Positions 5,858-38,048 are shown, counted from the first letter of the stretch. The stretch is 39,034 bases of DNA from a virus (IMGVR_UViG_3300042406_000792:1-39034); one strand, 5' to 3'. Notes: generated by a model from the sequence alone, not told the origin. Numbers and translations are program-made.

Positions 5858-6090
5858 GGGTTGCCCCCTAAGAATTGCCGTTTGTGATCGTCATTTAATG
5901 ATTTAAGAACACCTTGCGATGATTCGCCAAAAACAGAAAGAAGCTGTTCATGTTCGAGATTCTTTAAGCCATTAGTTCTAATAAATCGCAACGCCAAGCG
6001 CAGCTCTTCGTTTTCTTCAACCGCCGCCCTCCATTGAAGGGCCAAGGCTTCTAGCGCCGCTTTGGTCACTTGTTCGGATAACTTGTTCAT
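5854..6090 (-). CDS. Small coiled-coil protein, paralogue of the previous gene (78 aa)
   Basis: It starts at 6090, overlapping the sigma factor stop as ATGA (GAATGAAC). The shared ALEALA-QW module is at residues 12-30. The second half (LRFIRTNGLKNLEH, then LLSVFGESSQGV) has no counterpart in the shorter paralogue and is AT-richer. Direct coupling to the sigma factor raises the possibility of a partner or anti-sigma role, but nothing in the sequence shows this. Confidence 0.6.
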   Translation of the reverse strand: MNKLSEQVTKAALEALALQWRAAVEENEELRLALRFIRTNGLKNLEHEQLLSVFGESSQGVLKSLNDDHKRQFLGGNP

Positions 6091-6833
6091 TCTTCCCCTC
6101 CATCGTACCCCATAGCCCCCATCACGCTAGCAAGTTTCCGCTTGCTCTGTTTCCAGATCTGGTCCACCCGTTGCCGGGTAATACCGATTCGGCGCCCGAT
6201 GGCTCGCTCTGGTTCCTCGTCCATCCGACTCATCACGACTTCCTGTGCCCGGGCTGGAAGGCTTCGCAGGCCTTGCCGCACATCGTCCACTAGGTGAGCT
6301 TCCGGCCTTGCCGGGTCCGGCTGCCGGTGGTCCTCAATGTCGATGGTGTAGGACTCGCCATCACTGCCGCGGGTGTGCAGGGATTGCGCCGCCAGGGATT
6401 TCCTTATGCGCTCCATGCGCACATATTCAACCGCTATCGACCAGCAAACCCGGTAGCACCATGTCGAAAACGCGCCCTTGGTTCCGTCGAAACTGTGCAG
6501 GTTCCGCAGCACATTCAACGCGCATTCCTGTTGCCAGTCCTCAACGTCAATGCCCGTCGGCACCCATCGGCGCGCCGCCTTATAAACCAGCGGTAGGTTA
6601 TTGTCGTAGAATTCCCGCACTTCCGGCGCCGCCGGCGGTAGGATCTTCGACTTCCGGTAGGCTTCAACCGCTACGACGTTTGCCGCTGCTGCCGTCGGCG
6701 TCCAATACCGATGCCGGCGGTTTCGTATCATGCCGGTGGGTGGTGATATGATGCCGCGGTTCAATAAATGGGTCACGTTTGAAACGTGCATCCCGCACAT
6801 AACCGCCAGGTCTCGCGCCATGATCCGTTCCAC
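6087..6833 (-). CDS. Phage sigma-70-like factor with N-terminal MerR-type HTH
   Basis: This 248-aa protein has three parts. Residues 5-52 resemble a MerR/excisionase winged helix (LAVMCGMHVSNVTHLLNRG, then the wing RNRRHRYWTPTAAA). Residues 73-143 match sigma region 2 (DVEDWQQECALNVLRNL, FDGTKGAFSTWCYRV). Residues 188-237 match region 4 (LRSLPARAQEVVM, then the HTH IGRRIGITRQRVDQIWK). It should redirect RNA polymerase to phage promoters; the additional HTH may add its own DNA contact. The GTG at 6833 has GGGAGG 7 nt upstream, better placed than the ATG at 6821. Confidence 0.88.
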   Translation of the reverse strand: MERIMARDLAVMCGMHVSNVTHLLNRGIISPPTGMIRNRRHRYWTPTAAAANVVAVEAYRKSKILPPAAPEVREFYDNNLPLVYKAARRWVPTGIDVEDWQQECALNVLRNLHSFDGTKGAFSTWCYRVCWSIAVEYVRMERIRKSLAAQSLHTRGSDGESYTIDIEDHRQPDPARPEAHLVDDVRQGLRSLPARAQEVVMSRMDEEPERAIGRRIGITRQRVDQIWKQSKRKLASVMGAMGYDGGEE

Positions 6834-10012: not shown

Positions 10013-10758
10013 TTTCCTTCTCCTTGAATAGCGGTTCGTTCCTCGATCATCATTTGCAGGTCGGCAATAACGTTTGCCGCTTGCACCGCGGTGAGATCCG
10101 CGGATGCCTTTACCCCGTAGTGCTCTTTCACGCCAAGCCAAAAGGCTGCATCGACCCCGGCTTCTCGCCCAAGGCGCGCCATTTCTGCCAGCGCCTTTAC
10201 CCCGGCCTTTCGTTCCGCCGGTGCTGTCGGTGCTGTCGGTGTTGTCGGTGCAGGTAGCGCCAAGGGTTCCGGCGCCGCCCCGGGAATGCTTTCAACTTCT
10301 GACTCGTCTAACATCCCAAGGCCGCATATTGAAAGCGTCACGCGCCGCTTTGCCTTGGTCTCCGCCTTCATAAGCGCGTTGGCTATTGCGTCCCCTTGAA
10401 GGCCTTTCACCGGTACCGCGCCGGTGCTTTCATCTGTCCTGCCGTCTGGCATGGTGGCCCGTGCCGTCACTACGTGCACGCCGTCGGTGGTTTCGCGGCT
10501 GACGATTGCCACCGATACTCGGTGAACGCGCCTTAGCTGGTCGGTTGCGTCTCGGCGCGCGTACAACACCAACTTGCCACTAAGCCGGAGGTACTGAAAC
10601 GGTTGGCTTTCCAGCGTAAGCCCGGTGGCCTCGCAGATTCTGCGCACCAGCTCGAGACGCTCCGCGGGTTGCAGGCGCTCGAGGTTGCCATCGACCACCG
10701 CGGTTTCCCATCGTTCCGCGGTGCTTTCCATCGGCATCAATTCACTTGCTGTTGTCAT
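10009..10758 (-). CDS. Putative single-strand annealing recombinase
   Basis: This 249-aa protein starts at the ATG at 10758, with GAGAGGAAC before it. The central part has a strand-rich region (YLRLSGKLVLYARRDATDQL) followed by GAVPVKGLQGDAIANAL and MKAETKAKRRVTLSICGLG, a signature I associate with phage Rad52/RecT-like annealing proteins. A Pro/Ala/Thr linker (PAPTTPTAPTAP), encoded by a 9-bp tandem repeat at 10220-10250, leads to a helical C-terminus. It would pair complementary single strands in replication-coupled recombination. Family membership is from pattern memory, so moderate confidence. Confidence 0.65.
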   Translation of the reverse strand: MTTASELMPMESTAERWETAVVDGNLERLQPAERLELVRRICEATGLTLESQPFQYLRLSGKLVLYARRDATDQLRRVHRVSVAIVSRETTDGVHVVTARATMPDGRTDESTGAVPVKGLQGDAIANALMKAETKAKRRVTLSICGLGMLDESEVESIPGAAPEPLALPAPTTPTAPTAPAERKAGVKALAEMARLGREAGVDAAFWLGVKEHYGVKASADLTAVQAANVIADLQMMIEERTAIQGEGK

Positions 10759-10948
10759 TGTTCCTCTCCCTTCTAATTTCTGAACGATCAATCCTTACGT
10801 TGGGCCCGGCTGTAATCCGAAGTGACACCCTGCCACCCGCCGCCGCCTCCACACATATCACACATTCGTTCTCCCCTTCGCCGATTACGAGCTCTTCGCC
10901 GACTTTACGGTTTAAGTAGAGCCCACCGAAACTTGGCCCGTATGTCAT
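10742..10948 (-). CDS. csrA: CsrA/RsmA-like RNA-binding translational regulator
   Basis: This 68-aa protein starts at the ATG at 10948, with GGAGG 9 nt upstream. After a 9-residue extension it matches the CsrA consensus: LYLNRKVGEELVIGEG (compare LTRKxGExxxIG), then RVSLRITAGPNVRIDRSEI (compare RIGIxAPxxVxVxRxEI). The RNA-contacting positions appear retained: the arginine of LNRK (R14) and R55 of DRSEI. CsrA dimers bind GGA motifs in hairpin loops and block or activate translation. The three leader hairpins with AAGGA loops about 1.2-2 kb upstream on the same strand are obvious candidate targets. Confidence 0.9.
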   Translation of the reverse strand: MTYGPSFGGLYLNRKVGEELVIGEGENECVICVEAAAGGRVSLRITAGPNVRIDRSEIRRERNNDNSK

Positions 10949-11515: not shown

Positions 11516-11755
11516 TTAGTCGGCCATAGTCCAGAACCTTGAACCGAGCCCGCTTATTGCGCCATCGGCGCCAACGGTAGCGTACACGGTGTCCTTGCGG
11601 CTGAACCCGTCATTCTGCGATAGCATCCATTTACCGGGCTTTGATAGCACTACCCTAGAACCCATTTTCGGGGCCCACTCTCCGGTAGCAACGTGTTTGG
11701 CGCAAATTTTGCCACGGCTGCACTGAGCGTACTGTCCTGAAATCTGAATTTCCAT
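11516..11755 (-). CDS. Hypothetical small basic protein (79 aa)
   Basis: The ATG at 11755 has GTAGGAAG just upstream. The product is beta-rich with two Cys (QCSRGKICAKHVATGEW) and the segment GSRVVLSKPGKWMLSQ, perhaps a small SH3-like or OB-like barrel. The upstream region contains GGGTCGCACAGGATTAGGAAAT, which weakly resembles the operator/-10 block of the three cassettes to its right, so it may be a fourth, degenerate cassette. Function unknown. Confidence 0.6.
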   Translation of the reverse strand: MEIQISGQYAQCSRGKICAKHVATGEWAPKMGSRVVLSKPGKWMLSQNDGFSRKDTVYATVGADGAISGLGSRFWTMAD

Positions 11756-11840
11756 CTTCCTACTCCGTAAAGATTTCCTAATCCTGTGCGACCCAGACCC
11801 CGAAGGGTTTCGCCCCGGCGCCCCGGGGCTCATCAGTGGG

Positions 11841-12209
11841 TTATCGTTTGAACCAGCGCTGCCCCGCGTTCCACCGGGTAATCATATCGTTTATCTGGTC
11901 GATGGTCTTGCCGTAGTAATTCATCGTGTGTTGGCTGCACCTTACAACCGCTACGCCGTCAATCACAATCCCAAACACTCCGGCAAACTGGCGGTAAAGG
12001 CTAATCATGCCCGCTTCCGGCGCCACTTCCCAAACGTATGGTGCAATTTCTTGTTTGCCTTGGCCGCGCTTGGTGCTGCCGTTGCGCTTGCTGTTTTGAG
12101 CCACCGTGTTAATAAACTTTCCGCCTTCATACCATTCGCCGTTAGCTCCGAATTCGCCGCCGGCTGCTGCTCGCTTGGTGTTCATGGTCCCGTCTCCCGT
12201 TTGTGTCAC
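11841..12209 (-). CDS. Cassette protein 3, hypothetical (122 aa from GTG, 114 aa from ATG)
   Basis: Either the GTG at 12209, overlapping the leader-frame stop as GTGA, or the ATG at 12185 begins the protein; the SD-like GGGAGACGGG favours the ATG. It has a basic N-terminal half (GEWYEGGKFINTVAQNS, KRNGSTKRGQGKQE) and a beta-rich C-terminal half (SLYRQFAGVFGIVIDGVAVVR). I know similar uncharacterised proteins from phage early regions, no function. It is transcribed from its own TTGACA promoter with the conserved leader hairpin. Confidence 0.7.
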   Translation of the reverse strand: MTQTGDGTMNTKRAAAGGEFGANGEWYEGGKFINTVAQNSKRNGSTKRGQGKQEIAPYVWEVAPEAGMISLYRQFAGVFGIVIDGVAVVRCSQHTMNYYGKTIDQINDMITRWNAGQRWFKR

Positions 12210-12232
12210 CTAGAACCATCCTTCGGTTCCAT
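12206..12232 (-). CDS. Leader micro-ORF of cassette 3 (8 codons)
   Basis: The ATG is six bases downstream of the -10 box, so transcription would start at or next to its A and the message would be leaderless. It reads MEPKDGSR and stops with TGA overlapping a GTG start of the main gene (GTGA). The first five residues match those of the cassette 1 leader (MEPKD). Translation is inferred, not shown. Confidence 0.45.
   Translation of the reverse strand: MEPKDGSR
12211..12231 (-). ncRNA. Leader hairpin of cassette 3, AAGGA loop
   Basis: Arms 12231-12224 (UGGAACCG) and 12218-12211 (UGGUUCUA) pair at all eight positions, including two G-U pairs, around a 5-nt AAGGA loop (12223-12219). This is the best paired of three positionally equivalent hairpins at 12659-12679 and 13019-13039. 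ANGGA in a hairpin loop is the classical CsrA target. The same loop also resembles a Shine-Dalgarno core. Confidence 0.65.
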
Positions 12233-12266
12233 GCTTCTATCTTAATCAGCGTCGCGACCCTGTCAA
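12233..12266 (-). promoter_or_regulatory. Promoter and operator of cassette 3
   Basis: The -35 TTGACA (12266-12261) is perfect, the spacer is 16 bp and contains the 8-bp palindrome GTCGCGAC (12258-12251), and the -10 is TAAGAT (12244-12239). Six bases (AGAAGC) separate the -10 from the leader ATG. The same spacing is found at 12687-12714 and 13047-13074. Confidence 0.8.
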
Positions 12267-12268
12267 GA

Positions 12269-12293
12269 GGTTCCGGAAGATTTTTCCGGAACC
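12269..12293. terminator. Perfect hairpin upstream of promoter 3
   Basis: A 10-bp perfect stem (GGTTCCGGAA / TTCCGGAACC) with a 5-base loop lies between the stop of the 108-aa gene and the next -35 box. For leftward transcripts it would end the preceding message just before the next promoter. No U tract follows in that direction, so termination efficiency is uncertain. A counterpart lies at 12717-12742. Confidence 0.6.
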
Positions 12294-12306
12294 CCGAAAA
12301 GTTTTC

Positions 12307-12633
12307 TTATAAGGCTTCAATGGTGAGGCCGCGGTCCTTGGCGATTTTTTCCGCCAAGCGCTGAGCGCTGCGTTCGCTCCGGCAATCATAAACCTTGCCG
12401 ACCCATTCCCCATCAATCATCAGGCCCACGCACCAAATTAACGTTTCGTCATCGTCACCCACTTCTTGGGCTTCGGTGATCGCCACGTAGTATTGCGATT
12501 GGATTTCTGGAAGCTCTTCGGCTTCGGTGTCACCGACAAACCCGGTGAACTTCATGAACTGCTGATCGTCGGAGCGGTGATCAACGTTTCCGTTGTAGTC
12601 GGTGTTGACAAAGTTAAAGTAGGTCTGGCTCAT
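12307..12633 (-). CDS. Cassette protein 2, hypothetical (108 aa)
   Basis: The ATG at 12633 (MSQTYFNFVN) has the SD GGAGAACGGA upstream and overlaps the leader-frame stop as ATGA. The product is acidic (GDTEAEELPE, EVGDDDET) with a C-terminal helix containing SERSAQRLAEKIAKD, which looks like a small alpha/beta domain. No relationship to the other two cassette proteins is visible, so only the upstream regions are shared. Confidence 0.7.
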   Translation of the reverse strand: MSQTYFNFVNTDYNGNVDHRSDDQQFMKFTGFVGDTEAEELPEIQSQYYVAITEAQEVGDDDETLIWCVGLMIDGEWVGKVYDCRSERSAQRLAEKIAKDRGLTIEAL

Positions 12634-12680
12634 GTTCCGTTCTCCGTGTTGGCGTTTCTGACTGCGTCCTTCGCTGTCAT
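12630..12680 (-). CDS. Leader micro-ORF of cassette 2 (16 codons)
   Basis: It reads MTAKDAVRNANTENGT and stops with TGA overlapping the main ATG (ATGA). It has the same length as the cassette 1 leader frame (16 aa) and shares K-D near the start and TENG near the end. Its ATG is six bases after the -10 box, predicting a leaderless start. The shared TENG partly reflects the conserved SD sequence underneath, so peptide conservation alone is weak evidence of function. Confidence 0.5.
   Translation of the reverse strand: MTAKDAVRNANTENGT
12659..12679 (-). ncRNA. Leader hairpin of cassette 2, AAGGA loop
   Basis: Arms UGACAGCG (12679-12672) and CGCAGUCA (12666-12659) form seven pairs with one A-A mismatch around AAGGA (12671-12667). 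Compared with the cassette 1 hairpin, the stem next to the loop changes from CCG/CGG to GCG/CGC, a compensating change. An outer pair also changes from G-C to A-U. Confidence 0.65.
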
Positions 12681-12686
12681 GCCTGT

Positions 12687-12714
12687 ATTATGATCAATGT
12701 CGCAACAATGTCAA
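12687..12714 (-). promoter_or_regulatory. Promoter and operator of cassette 2
   Basis: The -35 is TTGACA (12714-12709), the spacer is 16 bp containing GTTGCGAC (12706-12699), and the -10 is CATAAT (12692-12687). The six bases ACAGGC then lead to the leader ATG. This matches a strong host-type sigma-70 promoter. Confidence 0.82.
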
Positions 12715-12716
12715 GA

Positions 12717-12742
12717 GGGCCCGAAAGAATTTTTCCGGGCCC
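12717..12742. terminator. Near-perfect hairpin upstream of promoter 2
   Basis: The arms GGGCCCGAAA and TTTCCGGGCCC pair with a single bulged base around a 5-base loop. The hairpin sits between the 79-aa gene stop and the next -35, like the one at 12269-12293. Together they suggest insulated single-gene units. Neither has a U tract downstream in the leftward direction. Confidence 0.55.
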
Positions 12743-12753
12743 GGAAGTTTTTC

Positions 12754-12993
12754 TTAGTTACGGTACTTGGCGCGAAAAGCAATCTCTTCATCGTTTGCAA
12801 TTTTCCAGCCAATTCCCTTCATGTTTGCATCGGCGATGTTGAAATGTTTTTCAAATCTGTGCTCGTCAGTTAAAACCGTATAAGCCAACCCGTATTTTTC
12901 TTGTTCACGATCACAAATCATTCCAAACGTTTTCTGCCCCATGTTGTGAAGAACCACTACCGTTCCAATTGCGATCCAGTGCTGCTTGTTCAT
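12754..12993 (-). CDS. Cassette protein 1, hypothetical (79 aa)
   Basis: The ATG at 12993 (MNKQHWIAIGTVVVLHN) has the SD GGAGAACGGA and overlaps the leader-frame stop as ATGA. The predicted fold is small alpha/beta (FGMICDREQEKYGLAYTVL). It has no recognised family. It is the promoter-proximal gene of the leftward early region and faces the rightward regulator, a position often used for the first early takeover proteins, which is inference only. Confidence 0.7.
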   Translation of the reverse strand: MNKQHWIAIGTVVVLHNMGQKTFGMICDREQEKYGLAYTVLTDEHRFEKHFNIADANMKGIGWKIANDEEIAFRAKYRN

Positions 12994-13040
12994 TTTCCGT
13001 TCTCCGTTTTCGTTGTCTTGGTCCCGTCCTTCGGTTCCAT
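12990..13040 (-). CDS. Leader micro-ORF of cassette 1 (16 codons)
   Basis: It reads MEPKDGTKTTKTENGK. The ATG is six bases after the -10 box and the TGA overlaps the main ATG (ATGA), so a ribosome ending here could restart on the cassette protein. Length and position equal those of the cassette 2 leader frame. No Shine-Dalgarno is possible upstream if transcription starts at the A. Confidence 0.5.
   Translation of the reverse strand: MEPKDGTKTTKTENGK
13019..13039 (-). ncRNA. Leader hairpin of cassette 1, AAGGA loop
   Basis: Arms UGGAACCG (13039-13032) and CGGGACCA (13026-13019) make UGG/CCA and CCG/CGG helices around a 2x2 AA/GA internal loop and present AAGGA (13031-13027). Counting further GGA sites, the leader holds four ANGGA motifs, two of them overlapping the SD of the main gene (ACGGAGAACGGA). 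Confidence 0.62.
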
Positions 13041-13046
13041 GCTTAA

Positions 13047-13074
13047 ATTCTAGTCGATGTTGCGACGCTGTCAA
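13047..13074 (-). promoter_or_regulatory. Promoter and operator of cassette 1 (leftward early promoter)
   Basis: The -35 is TTGACA (13074-13069), the spacer is 16 bp with GTCGCAAC (13066-13059), and the -10 is TAGAAT (13052-13047), followed by six bases and ATG. The operator-like motif also overlaps the probable -35 of the rightward regulator promoter, so one bound protein could control both directions. Confidence 0.85.
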
Positions 13075-13115: not shown

Positions 13116-13526
13116 ATGAATGCTTTAGAAGGCTTGGTTGAAGTCGTCAGCGCCAAGGAGCTTGCCACGATGCTAGGCATAACCACCCAATCGGTTTGGG
13201 GCCTGGTGCGCCGCGGTGCTATTGTGCCACCCATTCGCATGAGTGCCCGGAAGCACGTCTGGTGCCTTGCCACCGCCGAGGGGATTGTCCGCACGCGGAA
13301 GGAACCCCGGCTCCCGCAGGATACCACCCACCGCCGGCGCCGCGGTACCCAGCTCACCGTATGGGTGCCGCCGGAACTGAAGCAGGCGCTCCAAGGGTTG
13401 GCTAAGGCAAACAATACCACGCTCACCGGTGCCGTTTGTGCTGTCATCAAGTCTTGGTGGGCTGTTTGCAGTACCCAAACAACGCCACCTGTTTGTTTGG
13501 GCAAAGATGACGGGTTAAAGTCTTAA
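13116..13526 (+). CDS. Transcriptional regulator: MerR/excisionase-type HTH fused to a ribbon-helix-helix domain
   Basis: This 136-aa protein is the only rightward gene. Residues 9-58 form a helix-turn-helix (SAKELATMLGITTQSVWGLV, then RRGAIVPPIRM and a wing-like RKHVWC). Residues 77-115 look like a CopG/Arc-type ribbon-helix-helix: the strand TQLTVWVPPEL followed by the helices LKQALQGLAKANN and TGAVCAVIKSWW. Two DNA-binding domains in one chain are unusual. It faces three leftward promoters with a shared GTYGCRAC motif and is the natural candidate to bind them. It could be a lysis/early-gene repressor, but no integrase was found to support lysogeny. Confidence 0.8.
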   Translation: MNALEGLVEVVSAKELATMLGITTQSVWGLVRRGAIVPPIRMSARKHVWCLATAEGIVRTRKEPRLPQDTTHRRRRGTQLTVWVPPELKQALQGLAKANNTTLTGAVCAVIKSWWAVCSTQTTPPVCLGKDDGLKS

Positions 13527-33149: not shown

Positions 33150-33638
33150 TTAGTTGGCTAGCCAAGTGAATAGCGCCGGCCCGGTTGGAATGCCGCTGTT
33201 GTCGGTGTTGCCGGTGCGTCCTTCCGTCATATAGCTGCCGCTTCGGGGCGCCTTGGATTTTTGCGCCAATGCAAGGCGCTGCACTTGGCGCGCCGCGGTT
33301 TCCCTTGGCATGCTAGCCAAGTCTCGGAGCAGGTCCTTGGAAGGCTTTAGGCCCACCGCTTCGCATAGCTTGCGCGCGTTGCGGATGGCCTTAGCCTGAA
33401 GGCCTTCCATCGCGGGCTTCTTCTTTTCTTCGGGCTCTTCGTCCATTTCTGGGGTGTCATAGCCTTCGGTGGCTTCGTCATCCATGGCCTTCTTGTCTTC
33501 GTCTTCGGCTTCCATCGCGGGCTTCTCTTCCGCGCCGTCGTAGGCTTCCTCGGAAGGGACTTCTTCTTCGCCGCCAAGGCTCATGGCCAGTTGGTCAAGA
33601 AGGTCCTTCAATTGCGAAACGATTTCCGTTGTATCCAT
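33150..33638 (-). CDS. Probable separate scaffold protein from an internal in-frame start (162 aa)
   Basis: Inside the fusion gene the ATG at 33638 (MDTTEIVSQLKDLLDQL) is preceded by AGGAGC with an 8-nt spacing, a strong internal ribosome site. The product is acidic and helical (GAEEKPAMEAEDEDKK, ETAARQVQRLALAQK), like capsid scaffolds. Lambda Nu3 and the Mu Z/I scaffold are made from in-frame internal starts of the protease gene in the same way. This would supply many scaffold copies per protease copy. Confidence 0.72.
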   Translation of the reverse strand: MDTTEIVSQLKDLLDQLAMSLGGEEEVPSEEAYDGAEEKPAMEAEDEDKKAMDDEATEGYDTPEMDEEPEEKKKPAMEGLQAKAIRNARKLCEAVGLKPSKDLLRDLASMPRETAARQVQRLALAQKSKAPRSGSYMTEGRTGNTDNSGIPTGPALFTWLAN

Positions 33639-36600
33639 TTTCGTTGCTCCTGTGGATTCGGGCATGCCTGTAGTTGTTGGCTTGATTTTTAGGTATTTTC
33701 CGCCGTCAACTTCTGCGGGGCTCTTTGGCATTTCTGGAGGATTTCTAGTCGCCTTAATTTCAGCAACATCAGTATGGCGCGCTATAATGTCCATTGCTTT
33801 GTTCCACGCTCTCTCACCTTCTATCGTGTGCGCGTTTGCAGCGTTTTGGCGCGCAATCGTGTAAATTCTGCTCCATTCCTTGAAAACAGAATAGGGGTCT
33901 TTGCTGCTGGCTTCTTCAATTGGCGCTGTTGCTTTTTTCATTTTCTTACTCTCGCTAAGGCTCTTGGTTGTTGCCGGGTCTGCTACGAGGTCCACGTGCC
34001 GCACCTCCACAATCTTGGAGACCACAAACACCCCGTCCTTATTTTCTTCGCCCTCGCCTTGGGCGTTGTGGCTCATGCCGAATGCGTCTGGCATACGCTC
34101 CGCCGCTTCGCAGATTCTTTCCGCCATGGGGTGGGTTTTCAAATAAACCAGGTCACCGTAAAGGCCTTCACCTTCCACCCACCGAATGCGAGTAAGCTTC
34201 CCGAATCTGTCGTAGGCGCTGCGTTGTTGGTCGGGTGAGTCCTTCGGGTGGTCGATGTTTACGTGAACGCCTTCGTAAAGCTTCTTGGCCGCTTGGATTG
34301 CCGCGGGAAGGTACTGGCGCCCATTCTCGCTCACAAGGCCCAAGATCTTCACGTTGTTAATGGTTCCGGCTTCCCGATTGACTCGGATGCCGCGACCACT
34401 CAGAACAGATTCGTGTATGGGGCGTCTCATGGGGTTCAAGTATAAACACCGGTGCCGTATGGGTCCAAAAGCTTCGCCCAATGTGATCCCTGCCCGAAGC
34501 GCTCGGCGCTCCAATCGCACCGCCTCTTCCAAGCGCTTTCTATCTTCTGAACTCAAACCCTTCTTGCTTTTCTTGCTTCGCTTTTTAGGCTTCGGATTTT
34601 CCGGTTCTTCTTCTACTTCTTCTTCTTCTACTTCTTCTTCTACTTCTTCGCCTTCTTCCTCTTCTTCATCCCATCGGCGTTCATCTTCCGCGGGTTCCGC
34701 TGCCGCGGTTTCCGTCGGGAAGTCCCAAGGGTCGCCGCCGCGGCTTGCCCCGGCTGGCTCCCAATTGGCTTCGCCTTCTTCGTCTTCCCATCGGCGTTCA
34801 TCCTCTTCGGGTTCCGGCTGCTCCGCCGCCAAGGGTGGCGCCACCGCGCCGCGGGCGAATGGGTCATCGTCCCACGGGTCGGGGTCCGGTGTTGCCACCG
34901 CGGTGGGCTCCTTCACCCATTCGCCTTCCTCATCGTCCCACACTCGCTCCGGTTCTTCCGCCGGTTGCATCGGTGGTTCTGCCGGCGCTGGCGCGTCATC
35001 GTCCCAATTAAATGGCTCGGTTGAAACAGGAACAACGGGGCGCTCGGGATCGTAGGCGAAGCTTGGATCGTCTCGCACTAAATAGATTTGATCTTTGAAG
35101 AAACTAAGCTTGTCGGGCTTCTTGATTTCTCCGGCCTGACTTCTCATCAGGATATCCCACAAAACGTAATTCGGGTCAGATGACTTAACGTTTTCACCTG
35201 CCGCCGCGGATAAATCTTCTTCCGGGTTGCCAAACAACAAGCCAGACCATTCATACCCCGTGCGCATGGTTTGAACAATTTCATCGTAGAATGGGAAGTT
35301 GGTGTGATCATCCCACACCGGTGAATTGCGCGCCGGCCAAGGCCGCGATTCTTTCTTGCCGGTTTTGGGGTCGAATTCCCGCGAATAGAATTTCCAGTTT
35401 TTGCGCATCTCCGCCATGACTTCCTTCTCGGCGTTGTAGCGCTCCATCTCATGTTTCCAGCCCTGTTCGGCAAAGGCTTGGAGCGCTACCGGGTCCACAC
35501 CGCTGGCAATGGCTTCGACGTCAATCATCTTTTCAACTGATTGGCGCTTAATGATCTGCGCGTATAAATAGTCTCGGCGCTTGCCGGTGCCTACCAAAAC
35601 CTCGGGAAGCGTTGCCGGGTCGATGTTTACATGTAGCGCCACCTTGGCCATTTGTTCGCCGCTAAGCTCTCCTAGCGCGTTGAACAATGGCAAGCTTTTA
35701 GTGCCCTTGCCAAATGCCCGTTGCGCCAGGTTGACAACCTCGCCGTACCTGTCCATCGCTATATCGTCGGCGCCGTCTGGCATTGGCTCGGCTTCGCCCC
35801 GTACCACGTTTACCTGTGGTGGCGGTGGCGCCGGCGCCGTCACTTGTGGGCCTGTCGGCGTCATCACGTCAAGCGCCGCCCCAAATCTGTCCACCTTCCC
35901 GCGGAGCTTCTTTTCTAGGCTTTCCACCTGATCCGCTACGGCTTTGATTTCTTTCTTCCAGGCCCGGTGATCAATCGGTATGTTTACCGCCCATCGCAAT
36001 GTTTCGGCTTGCTTGTCGCGCCATAGGCTGAGCGCCGCCGTCTTCACGCCGCGGGTCAATTTCGGCTGTTCGGATTCGTCGTACACTCGGAAGATAACGC
36101 CGTCAACAATCCACGCTCGGTTATTGCCTTGGTCTCCCTCGGGGTGTCGTGTTGGCGGTGGGCCTTCCATCTCGCGGGTCTGGCGCCAAATTTCTTCGGC
36201 TTGGTCCGCCTTCTCTTGCCATGATGCCAAGATCTCTTTGCCAAATTGAATGCGCCACGTTGCCGCGGCAATCTGGTCATACTCGCGCACCTTTGCAGGC
36301 TTTAACCCCATGGCCTTGGCTGCCTGTTCCGCTGTTGCCAATAGAACCCGGGTGCCGTCTGGAGATGCCGTAAGTGTTGTTTTTTCTTCGGCGTACTGAA
36401 GGTCCGCCATGGTGAGCTTGTCCTTCTCCATAAGCTCTTGCCATTCTCTTTTCAGCATCGAGTCCGTGTCTTTGTCAAGCTTCCCGCCGGGTCGCAAAAC
36501 AGGCTTGTAAACCTCATGCGACACCGCCACGCCGGTGGGGCCTTCAAGCTTGAACGGGAATCTAGTCGCCTCCCATCGGAAGGGGATATATTCTGTCGGG

Positions 36601-38048
36601 TCGGCTTTCACTGCCTCCCCTTGGAAGGCGCCGCCCTTGCCTGCCTCGCGGCTGAACTTCGCCTGCTCGGCGTCAATCCTGTCCTGTTCCACCGGCGCCG
36701 GTAGCGGAAGGGGCTCCGGCGCTTCCGGGGTTGGGCTTTCCGGTGACGTGTACGGGTGGGGCGCCGGCGGGGTGAGGTCTGCCACCGGTAGCGGTTCGCC
36801 TCCGTCCTCCGCGGTGAGATAGCCAAACCGTTGCACCTGCCGCGCCAGTCGCTCCCGCTCCGCCAAAACTTCCGCCACCCGAGCCATTCGGGCTTCACGC
36901 CGTGCCGGCGTCTCGGCTGTCAAGCGCTCCAATTGCAGAAGCTGCCCGGTGGTGGGGTCGATGAAATGCGCCCACGTCGGCGCCTGCCCGGCTGGAAGGC
37001 CTGCCGTGATTGCCGATAGGCGCCGCGCCCCGACTGCCCACCGGCGCTCTTGGTCCGAAGCGTTGGCGAACCAATCCGAATAGACGTTGGGGTCTTGAAC
37101 TAGCTTGTGGTCGTTGTCGGTGAACAGGGCCCGCGCCGCGGGGTTGTTTTCAATGTCGGGGTCCACGTCCAATACCGGCGTAAGATAGCACCGGCAATTG
37201 TGGGCCACGGTTCCATCTTCTTCAAGCGGGGGCCGCGGCATATGCGTTGTAGATTGTTGCCCCGGCTTGGGCCGCACATAGTACACCGTTCCGTTCCTTG
37301 CCGCGTGGTGGGGCCTGACGCGCCAGTCCATGGTTGCGTGAATCTGGTAGCCTGCTACCAGGTCCCCTAGGCCGCTGTAGCAATCCATCCGGGCTTCGTG
37401 CGCCACCCGCATTCCCTCGGTTCGTGCCACCCGCCGCGCCGACGTTCTGACACCCTGCACCGCGGGCAGCATAGTCCGCGCCATGGCTTGGATTGTTTGG
37501 CCTTGGCTTATTCCTTGGATCACGATGTTGGCAAGCTGCTCCGGTGGCGCCAAGGCGCTTTGGGCCGCGATGCGGGCCTGCCAGGTCAGGCCGTTGGTTG
37601 GGCGGGCGATGATTGCGGTAGTCTCGTCGTGGTCAAGCGCCGGGAATAGTTGCGCTTCGACTTGGGCCCGTTGCTCCGGATTAAGGCGCCGGGCTTCGGT
37701 GAGGTCAGGCCTTTCCGGCGCTGCCAAGGTTAGAGCGGTGGCGATGACTGCCCGCGGGGCCTCGGCTAAAACTTCCTCCCGTGCCGCGGTGTGGGCCCGT
37801 TTGGCAATCTGCCGGAGGCCTGCATCCAGTCCCTTAACGGTGAGCGTTTGAATCTCGCGCAGGATCGCCCCCAGCTGGGTCCGCGCATCCACCGGAAGGG
37901 GCTTCAATGCGATCAGGCGCAAGGCGCGCTTCCATAGTCGCACTACCTTGGCGTCGATGCCGTCGGCGACTTCATCGGCATGCGCCAGGGTGCGCGCCTG
38001 ATTGACGCCCACCCGTGCCGCCATGCGTGAGTTGAATACGCTGCCCAC
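33150..38048 (-). CDS. MuF-like / capsid protease / scaffold fusion protein (1632 aa)
   Basis: It starts at GTG 38048, 3 nt after the portal stop. Residues 150-295 are the Mu gpF/SPP1 gp7 minor head domain (ARTEGMRVAHEAR, WRVRPHHAARNGTVYY, HNCRCYLTP). Residues 430-1000 are unrecognised. Residues about 1010-1165 are acidic, with three RRW-D-EEGE repeats, and then the basic KKRSKKSKK. Residues about 1205-1365 are a prohead protease-like domain with His1267 (NIDHP) and Ser1326 (FGMSHN), and VDLVADPATT. The rest is scaffold-like. These are normally two or three separate genes. The fusion is in one uninterrupted frame. Confidence 0.85.
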   Translation of the reverse strand: MGSVFNSRMAARVGVNQARTLAHADEVADGIDAKVVRLWKRALRLIALKPLPVDARTQLGAILREIQTLTVKGLDAGLRQIAKRAHTAAREEVLAEAPRAVIATALTLAAPERPDLTEARRLNPEQRAQVEAQLFPALDHDETTAIIARPTNGLTWQARIAAQSALAPPEQLANIVIQGISQGQTIQAMARTMLPAVQGVRTSARRVARTEGMRVAHEARMDCYSGLGDLVAGYQIHATMDWRVRPHHAARNGTVYYVRPKPGQQSTTHMPRPPLEEDGTVAHNCRCYLTPVLDVDPDIENNPAARALFTDNDHKLVQDPNVYSDWFANASDQERRWAVGARRLSAITAGLPAGQAPTWAHFIDPTTGQLLQLERLTAETPARREARMARVAEVLAERERLARQVQRFGYLTAEDGGEPLPVADLTPPAPHPYTSPESPTPEAPEPLPLPAPVEQDRIDAEQAKFSREAGKGGAFQGEAVKADPTEYIPFRWEATRFPFKLEGPTGVAVSHEVYKPVLRPGGKLDKDTDSMLKREWQELMEKDKLTMADLQYAEEKTTLTASPDGTRVLLATAEQAAKAMGLKPAKVREYDQIAAATWRIQFGKEILASWQEKADQAEEIWRQTREMEGPPPTRHPEGDQGNNRAWIVDGVIFRVYDESEQPKLTRGVKTAALSLWRDKQAETLRWAVNIPIDHRAWKKEIKAVADQVESLEKKLRGKVDRFGAALDVMTPTGPQVTAPAPPPPQVNVVRGEAEPMPDGADDIAMDRYGEVVNLAQRAFGKGTKSLPLFNALGELSGEQMAKVALHVNIDPATLPEVLVGTGKRRDYLYAQIIKRQSVEKMIDVEAIASGVDPVALQAFAEQGWKHEMERYNAEKEVMAEMRKNWKFYSREFDPKTGKKESRPWPARNSPVWDDHTNFPFYDEIVQTMRTGYEWSGLLFGNPEEDLSAAAGENVKSSDPNYVLWDILMRSQAGEIKKPDKLSFFKDQIYLVRDDPSFAYDPERPVVPVSTEPFNWDDDAPAPAEPPMQPAEEPERVWDDEEGEWVKEPTAVATPDPDPWDDDPFARGAVAPPLAAEQPEPEEDERRWEDEEGEANWEPAGASRGGDPWDFPTETAAAEPAEDERRWDEEEEEGEEVEEEVEEEEVEEEPENPKPKKRSKKSKKGLSSEDRKRLEEAVRLERRALRAGITLGEAFGPIRHRCLYLNPMRRPIHESVLSGRGIRVNREAGTINNVKILGLVSENGRQYLPAAIQAAKKLYEGVHVNIDHPKDSPDQQRSAYDRFGKLTRIRWVEGEGLYGDLVYLKTHPMAERICEAAERMPDAFGMSHNAQGEGEENKDGVFVVSKIVEVRHVDLVADPATTKSLSESKKMKKATAPIEEASSKDPYSVFKEWSRIYTIARQNAANAHTIEGERAWNKAMDIIARHTDVAEIKATRNPPEMPKSPAEVDGGKYLKIKPTTTGMPESTGATKMDTTEIVSQLKDLLDQLAMSLGGEEEVPSEEAYDGAEEKPAMEAEDEDKKAMDDEATEGYDTPEMDEEPEEKKKPAMEGLQAKAIRNARKLCEAVGLKPSKDLLRDLASMPRETAARQVQRLALAQKSKAPRSGSYMTEGRTGNTDNSGIPTGPALFTWLAN

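Follow-up and report, generated by a model that had tools for sequence, protein, structure and literature searches.

A 5'-terminal stem-loop in the ompA leader stabilizes its mRNA, and the T4 RegA protein represses the translation of phage early genes. Repression of the glgC type by CsrA or RsmA involves two sites, a GGA in a hairpin loop and a second GGA over the Shine–Dalgarno (SD) sequence, which lie 10–63 nt apart in CsrA targets and work best at more than 18 nt (PMC7652899). The usual sites of the CsrA family are described as penta- or hexaloops (PMC6849547, citing Lapouge 2013), and the plasmid-encoded family member RsmQ binds ANGGA at the tops of hairpins (PMC9928087). In phages, csrA is present in 30 of 2517 genomes with a role reported as unclear (PMC7366521), and it has been described as a moron in phage JC1 (PMC9144972); among papers available outside subscription, our search of the literature on CsrA in phages and on what it regulates brought up no case in which phage leaders are a target of a phage CsrA. 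Hammerhead ribozymes of prophages share a CUGANGA...GAAA core and occur several per phage, between single genes (PMC3088659).

Here we describe an early region from a 39,034-nt stretch of viral DNA (IMGVR_UViG_3300042406_000792; the whole stretch is called the window below) that resembles each of these systems in part. Like glgC-type targets, its leaders combine an upstream loop GGA with a GGA over the SD, here ~21 nt apart, and the CsrA-like protein keeps L4 and R44, but regulator and targets are both encoded by the phage, the candidate sites are known from sequence only, and the hairpin begins at +2, carries a pentaloop and comes in three modular copies. With RsmQ and the phage csrA genes the locus shares a CsrA family member on a mobile element and, given the preference of RsmQ, ANGGA hairpins, whereas those reports concern global host effects or an unclear role and do not count the phage's own leaders among the targets. 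The likeness to ompA lies in a hairpin at most 1 nt from the predicted 5' end, with a covarying stem and a loop that is free in the wider family, yet the present clade holds its loop constant as ANGGA. As with RegA, a small phage protein would silence several early mRNAs, but the protein is unrelated and the sites are hairpin-based. Finally, the prophage hammerheads have counterparts here with the same core and the same placement, several per phage, that differ in being interspersed with promoter–hairpin cassettes in one early region and in scoring under the Rfam cut-offs.

Three promoter–hairpin cassettes in the early region

The leaders of the three cassettes start at 13040, 12680 and 12232 on the minus strand, where the first-pass annotation had put them and where we found them on rereading the window (Table 1). 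All three promoters consist of TTGACA, 16 bp, a −10 hexamer (TAGAAT, CATAAT and TAAGAT in cassettes 1, 2 and 3) and exactly 6 nt, followed by the leader's A, the +1 predicted from the −10 to +1 spacing; the stem-loop starts at the predicted +2. The layout given earlier, an A, an 8-nt arm, AAGGA and a second 8-nt arm, holds for every copy, and a recount returned the same 6, 7 and 8 stem pairs: arms TGGAACCG and CGGGACCA are paired at six of eight positions in cassette 1, TGACAGCG and CGCAGTCA at seven of eight in cassette 2, and TGGAACCG and TGGTTCTA at all eight in cassette 3, two of these being G–U. Further GGA motifs had also been noted at the SD, and these read ACGGAGAACGGA at the cassette 1 and 2 genes and ACGGGAGACGGGA at the cassette 3 gene; in cassette 1 the loop GGA occupies +12 to +14 and the SD GGA begins at +36, leaving ~21 nt between them. 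The shared arrangement suggests that the cassettes are copies of one early-gene control module, with a sigma70-type promoter and a fixed, predicted start point.

Table 1. Features of the early region, with positions in the window
Feature	Position	Strand	Basis
CsrA-like RNA-binding protein (putative), 68 aa; L12/R55 align with CsrA L4/R44	10742..10948	-	Pfam
Gene 4; led here by the hammerhead-like element	11516..11755	-	
Hammerhead-like ribozyme between cassette 3 and gene 4	11792..11840	-	Rfam HH9 18.2 bits, gathering 52
Cassette 3 main gene, 114 aa; most relatives have an unrelated gene here instead	11841..12185	-	
Cassette 3 hairpin, loop AAGGA at 12219-12223	12211..12232	-	Alignment, covariation
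Cassette 3 promoter TTGACA-16-TAAGAT	12233..12266	-	Sequence, relatives
Cassette 2 main gene, 108 aa, kept in cassette 2 of related phages, without family match	12307..12633	-	
Cassette 2 GGA pair at SD	12636..12645	-	
Cassette 2 hairpin, loop AAGGA at 12667-12671	12659..12680	-	Alignment, covariation
Cassette 2 promoter TTGACA-16-CATAAT	12681..12714	-	Sequence, relatives
Cassette 1 main gene, 79 aa, without family match	12754..12993	-	
Cassette 1 GGA pair at SD (GGAGAACGGA)	12996..13005	-	
Cassette 1 5'-terminal hairpin, loop AAGGA at 13027-13031, AUG first	13019..13040	-	Alignment, covariation
Cassette 1 promoter TTGACA-gcgtcgcaacatcgac-TAGAAT-ttaagc	13041..13074	-	Spacing same in related contigs
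Divergent gene, weak similarity to excisionase/HTH regulators (E=0.0009)	13116..13526	+	

The promoter spacers share one more element, GTYGCRAC, at 13059-13066, 12699-12706 and 12251-12258 and nowhere else in the 39-kb window. It is a candidate operator or phage-sigma element, and the product of the divergent gene is a candidate for its reader. Within these cassettes GTYGCRAC is also a better operator candidate than the +1 hairpin; a DNA operator for a dimeric protein at +1 was rejected, as the arms vary by compensation, contain G–U pairs and surround a fixed centre, the opposite of what marks an operator. Long inverted repeats on the minus strand at ~12717-12742 (GGGCCC...) and ~12269-12293 (GGTTCC...GGAACC) end a short way before the −35 elements of cassettes 2 and 3. 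Their stems differ while pairing is preserved; these are possibly insulating terminators without a U tract. Elsewhere the window encodes a sigma70-like factor (6087-6833, minus strand; Pfam Sigma70_r2, 7e-13) and a 1632-aa protein (33150-38048, minus strand) with a Mu F-like minor head domain in its N-terminal part only.

Leaders and ribozyme-like elements among related phages

The same cassettes, csrA or both were found in seven more IMG/VR contigs, giving 22 cassettes over 8 contigs. All 22 have the hairpin and an A-R-GGA loop, the only loop changes being A to G at the N of A-N-GGA, in three sequence contexts, and the main ATG always lies 46–48 nt from +1. In cassette 1 of one contig (L008) the promoter spacer is one base longer and the −10 to hairpin distance is the same, so that the hairpin is linked to the point where transcription starts. 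The main genes are exchanged between cassettes (those of the window and of the contigs of L004-L009, L025 and L104) like swappable gene cassettes: across phages, three unrelated genes occur in cassette 1, at least four occur in cassette 3, and the homologue of window gene 4 sits behind promoter cassette 3 in contig 3300011116_000886. Because the genes are swapped while promoter, hairpin and SD stay constant, selection acts on the leaders, as had been proposed. Described phages gave 0 DNA or CsrA matches among 50,697 records, and the search for CsrA among genome contigs likewise gave none. Loci L129, L130, L131 and L134 were rejected as chance matches, and a first pattern scan gave, among the matches listed, mostly chance hits or an unrelated conserved coding stretch.

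The probability that a random 8+5+8 stretch of the window forms 6 or more pairs is 0.039; it is 0.0064 for 7 or more and 0.0006 for all 8. Only 9 of the 233 ANGGA sites in the window have at least 6 pairs, three of the nine being the leaders; because the leaders are paralogues of one another, their probabilities cannot be combined by multiplication. Stronger evidence that the pairing exceeds chance, the arms changing while pairing is kept as had been noted, comes from covariation over 20 distinct sequences. There, 88.7% of cells are paired, four of the eight stem pairs show two-sided changes, and the covariation score is 0.39, against 0.18 for shuffled alignments (0 of 500 reach it) and at most 0.09 with slid partners, in a set that consists of three paralogous groups from near-identical phages and holds few independent events (about five or six). 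Columns A10, G12, G13 and A14 are invariant across the 20 sequences. A covariance model of the leaders (R1), the kind of search proposed as a check, found nothing convincing outside the clade.

More distant phages, with primases that are 45–63% identical, were reached by a mixed PrimPol alignment, which gave intermediates with an early region; a first PrimPol scan and a scan with a TerL alignment found no intermediate phage with an early region. Six of the distant phages have CsrA matches of 26–34 bits (five above the Pfam cut-off) and three more have matches of 21–22 bits. A hairpin follows directly on their early promoters in most cases: in 18 leaders, picked by promoter, SD and ORF only and regardless of folding, the first 40 nt fold more stably than their dinucleotide-shuffled versions (Fisher p=1e-11; p=2e-7 for the 9 best promoters), and +1 hairpins are present in six more distant phages. 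The loops are mostly 5 nt, alike within one phage and different between phages (ACTGA and GATGAT in L335; AAGAA and AAAGT in L337; ACATT and ACAAC in L339; ACAAA in L344; AAGAC in L342), and L335 and L337 have a CsrA above the cut-off despite their non-GGA loops. Only L336 among the distant phages has a loop with GGA, its TTGCAA-17-TAGTAT promoter being followed by CCGCTGA-AGGGA-TCAGCGG; with a CsrA that is 49% identical, it is an independent relative with an AGGGA pentaloop.

Loss of the loop with the promoter kept, which the first-pass annotation had named as an outcome that would count against its proposal, is absent within the clade and is seen at the greater distance of the 45–63% primases. 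As distant relatives combine the promoter, the hairpin and, in several cases, a CsrA with non-GGA loops, GGA is not the reason why the hairpin exists in the family. The +1 hairpin is ancestral or recurrent in the family and the GGA loop is restricted, which makes the hairpin older than the GGA loop, and the hairpin probably also has a structural role, for instance in protecting the 5' end.

Between cassette 3 and gene 4, the window has a hammerhead-like element that reads CUGAUGAG, stem II, CGAAA, stem III, GUC, stem I. Searches at the Rfam gathering thresholds gave 0 matches (18.2 vs 52 for the window, 28.3 vs 48.5 for L342), and because the scores fall below gathering, the hammerhead call rests on comparison of core and stems: the CUGANGA core, stem II, GAAA, stem III, the cleavage triplet and stem I pairing are present in the window and its relatives. 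Similar elements lie between early genes of sister phages, L340, L346 and L335, their stems varying while core and pairing persist. In related phages they form arrays between single early genes, with CUGA(U/C)GAG cores (L335 at 1960-2015, 2335-2385 and 2580-2630; L340 at 346, 712 and 1762; L346 at 736; also L216-L219). In this lineage, early transcripts thus appear to begin in one of two ways, with a hairpin at the +1 of a promoter or at a self-cleaved end.

Relatives of the terminase in bacterial genomes fall in Planctomycetota in 26 of 28 cases, the other two being Omnitrophica, which makes a planctomycete the probable host. The planctomycete genomes behind L303-L328 have up to 14 CsrA matches each.

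The CsrA-like protein and its candidate sites

The ORF at 10742-10948 had been called CsrA-like, and Pfam agrees (CsrA, PF02599, 34.1 bits vs a cut-off of 27); the copies in the clade score 33–35 bits and are 95–99% identical to that of the window. In alignment, L4 and R44, which are central to RNA binding, are both retained. Across nine phage homologues R44 is invariant and L4 nearly so, and R6 is lost in the CsrA-like proteins of L349, L339 and L156. The AF2 model of the window protein has a pLDDT of 75, and its top 11 Foldseek matches are all CsrA, RsmA or RsmE, with probabilities of 0.84–0.97 and E-values of 0.13–0.5, which are weak because the protein is small; the predicted fold of a sister CsrA-like protein was too poor for comparison. 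Pfam score, residues and predicted fold together place the product in the CsrA family.

The leaders show both parts of a two-site CsrA target, with a loop ANGGA in 22/22 of the clade and an SD GGA within 10–63 nt. The ~21-nt spacing falls inside that range and above the 18-nt optimum and so fits bridging by one CsrA dimer; the loop of the window has 5 nt vs the 6 preferred in SELEX. Because loops are alike also within non-GGA phages, constancy of the loop in the clade is weak evidence for CsrA.

Counts of GGA before start codons offer a further line of support. At least two GGA are found in the 30 nt before the start of 20 of 25 early genes vs 24 of 107 late genes (window, L335, L336 and L337, the four phages grouped as canonical for CsrA), and GGA is the most enriched purine triplet before early starts (p=3e-8), other purine triplets rising less; in L335, CAGGACAGGAG is repeated at the SD of several early genes. 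The early excess is absent in seven phages with a divergent CsrA or none (1.16 vs 1.09, p=0.2), in a test that was post hoc, used a crude gene caller and relied on our own grouping into canonical and divergent CsrA. Two phages do not fit: the CsrA of L345 is near-canonical but the excess is missing, and L350 lacks a CsrA yet shows a marginal excess (p=0.04). We take the contrast as support for CsrA action and not as proof.

Competing explanations and what the leaders imply

The interpretation that we favour over a purely structural hairpin, tentatively and with close to an even chance of being right, is that CsrA-type translational control has been layered on an older 5'-terminal hairpin. The old, family-wide +1 hairpin would also shield the mRNA 5' end, and the clade's A-N-GGA loop together with the SD GGA would turn each leader into a two-site target for a CsrA-type protein. 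With the start points as predicted, the most likely binder is the product of the phage csrA gene, which lies further downstream in this early region, rather than a host CsrA; the phage protein would grip the loop with one face of its dimer and the SD with the other, and, once accumulated, would stop translation of the exchangeable early genes, so that the sign of control would be repression. Of the proposal made earlier, that the phage uses its own CsrA to control translation of these genes, the leaders, geometry and residues fit, but most distant loops lack GGA and the binder may instead be one of the multiple CsrA paralogues that planctomycetes usually have.

A hairpin that is structural throughout is a real possibility, if one we lean away from. 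The +1 stem-loop would guard early mRNA from 5'-end-dependent decay or insulate the SD, with an incidental loop, and the clade's GGA would be a variant of the family's purine-rich loops. The hairpins of six distant phages, with stability above shuffles, point this way, as does the AAG common to AAGGA, AAGAA and AAGAC, and hammerhead-like cleavage at neighbouring early genes would leave a 5'-OH, also a protected end. Left unexplained are the retention of A-N-GGA in three diverged paralogues over 8 contigs, with changes at N only, the AGGGA loop of L336 and the GGA excess at early SDs of phages with a canonical CsrA. It is doubtful that a phage CsrA-like protein docks on 5'-terminal pentaloops in general, repressing translation of early genes, with the loop re-specified in each clade (ARGGA, ACTGA, AAGAA, ACAAC, AAGAC) along with changes in the CsrA-like protein. 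Reading of the leaders by host CsrA, or its titration by them, is unlikely: CsrA is encoded in 12/12 planctomycete genomes with related terminases (1–14 matches each), and such terminases point to Planctomycetota in the 26 of 28 genome contigs mentioned above, but each transcript has a single hairpin, unlike multi-site decoys such as CsrB, and the phage keeps its own csrA strongly conserved (95–99% in the clade).

Loops that are alike within a phage and different between phages could also reflect another phage RNA-binding factor that reads clade-specific pentaloops in the manner of boxB, or a specificity of the CsrA-like protein that has shifted along the lineage, R44 being invariant while L4 and R6 change in divergent proteins; we consider this quite unlikely, as no candidate N-like gene was identified and the likeness within a phage may reflect only recent duplication. 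The least probable reading is a leaderless upstream ORF, in which translation of a short peptide from the +1 AUG is coupled to that of the main gene. Ribosomes can bind AUGs at a 5' terminus, with effects on genes downstream (PMC4965119), AUG comes first in 22/22 leaders, and in 11 of these it opens a 16-codon frame whose stop is the TGA within the ATGA at the start of the main gene. We rejected such coupling because the frame is broken or fused in the other 11 leaders, 7 being fused in frame to the main gene and 4 being out of frame, so that it is not conserved; both synonymous and non-synonymous codon changes occur in the hairpin, and U2 and G3 of the AUG are also paired in the stem.

The leaders offer concrete candidate targets inside a csrA phage, three per genome with an identical layout and freely swapped genes. 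If CsrA-type control of these leaders is true, the phage would have taken over a global regulator of the host type to switch its own early genes, with a logic like that of T4 RegA. Whatever the binder, a covarying +1 hairpin across the lineage, alternating with hammerhead-like ribozymes, shows strong selection on mRNA 5' ends.
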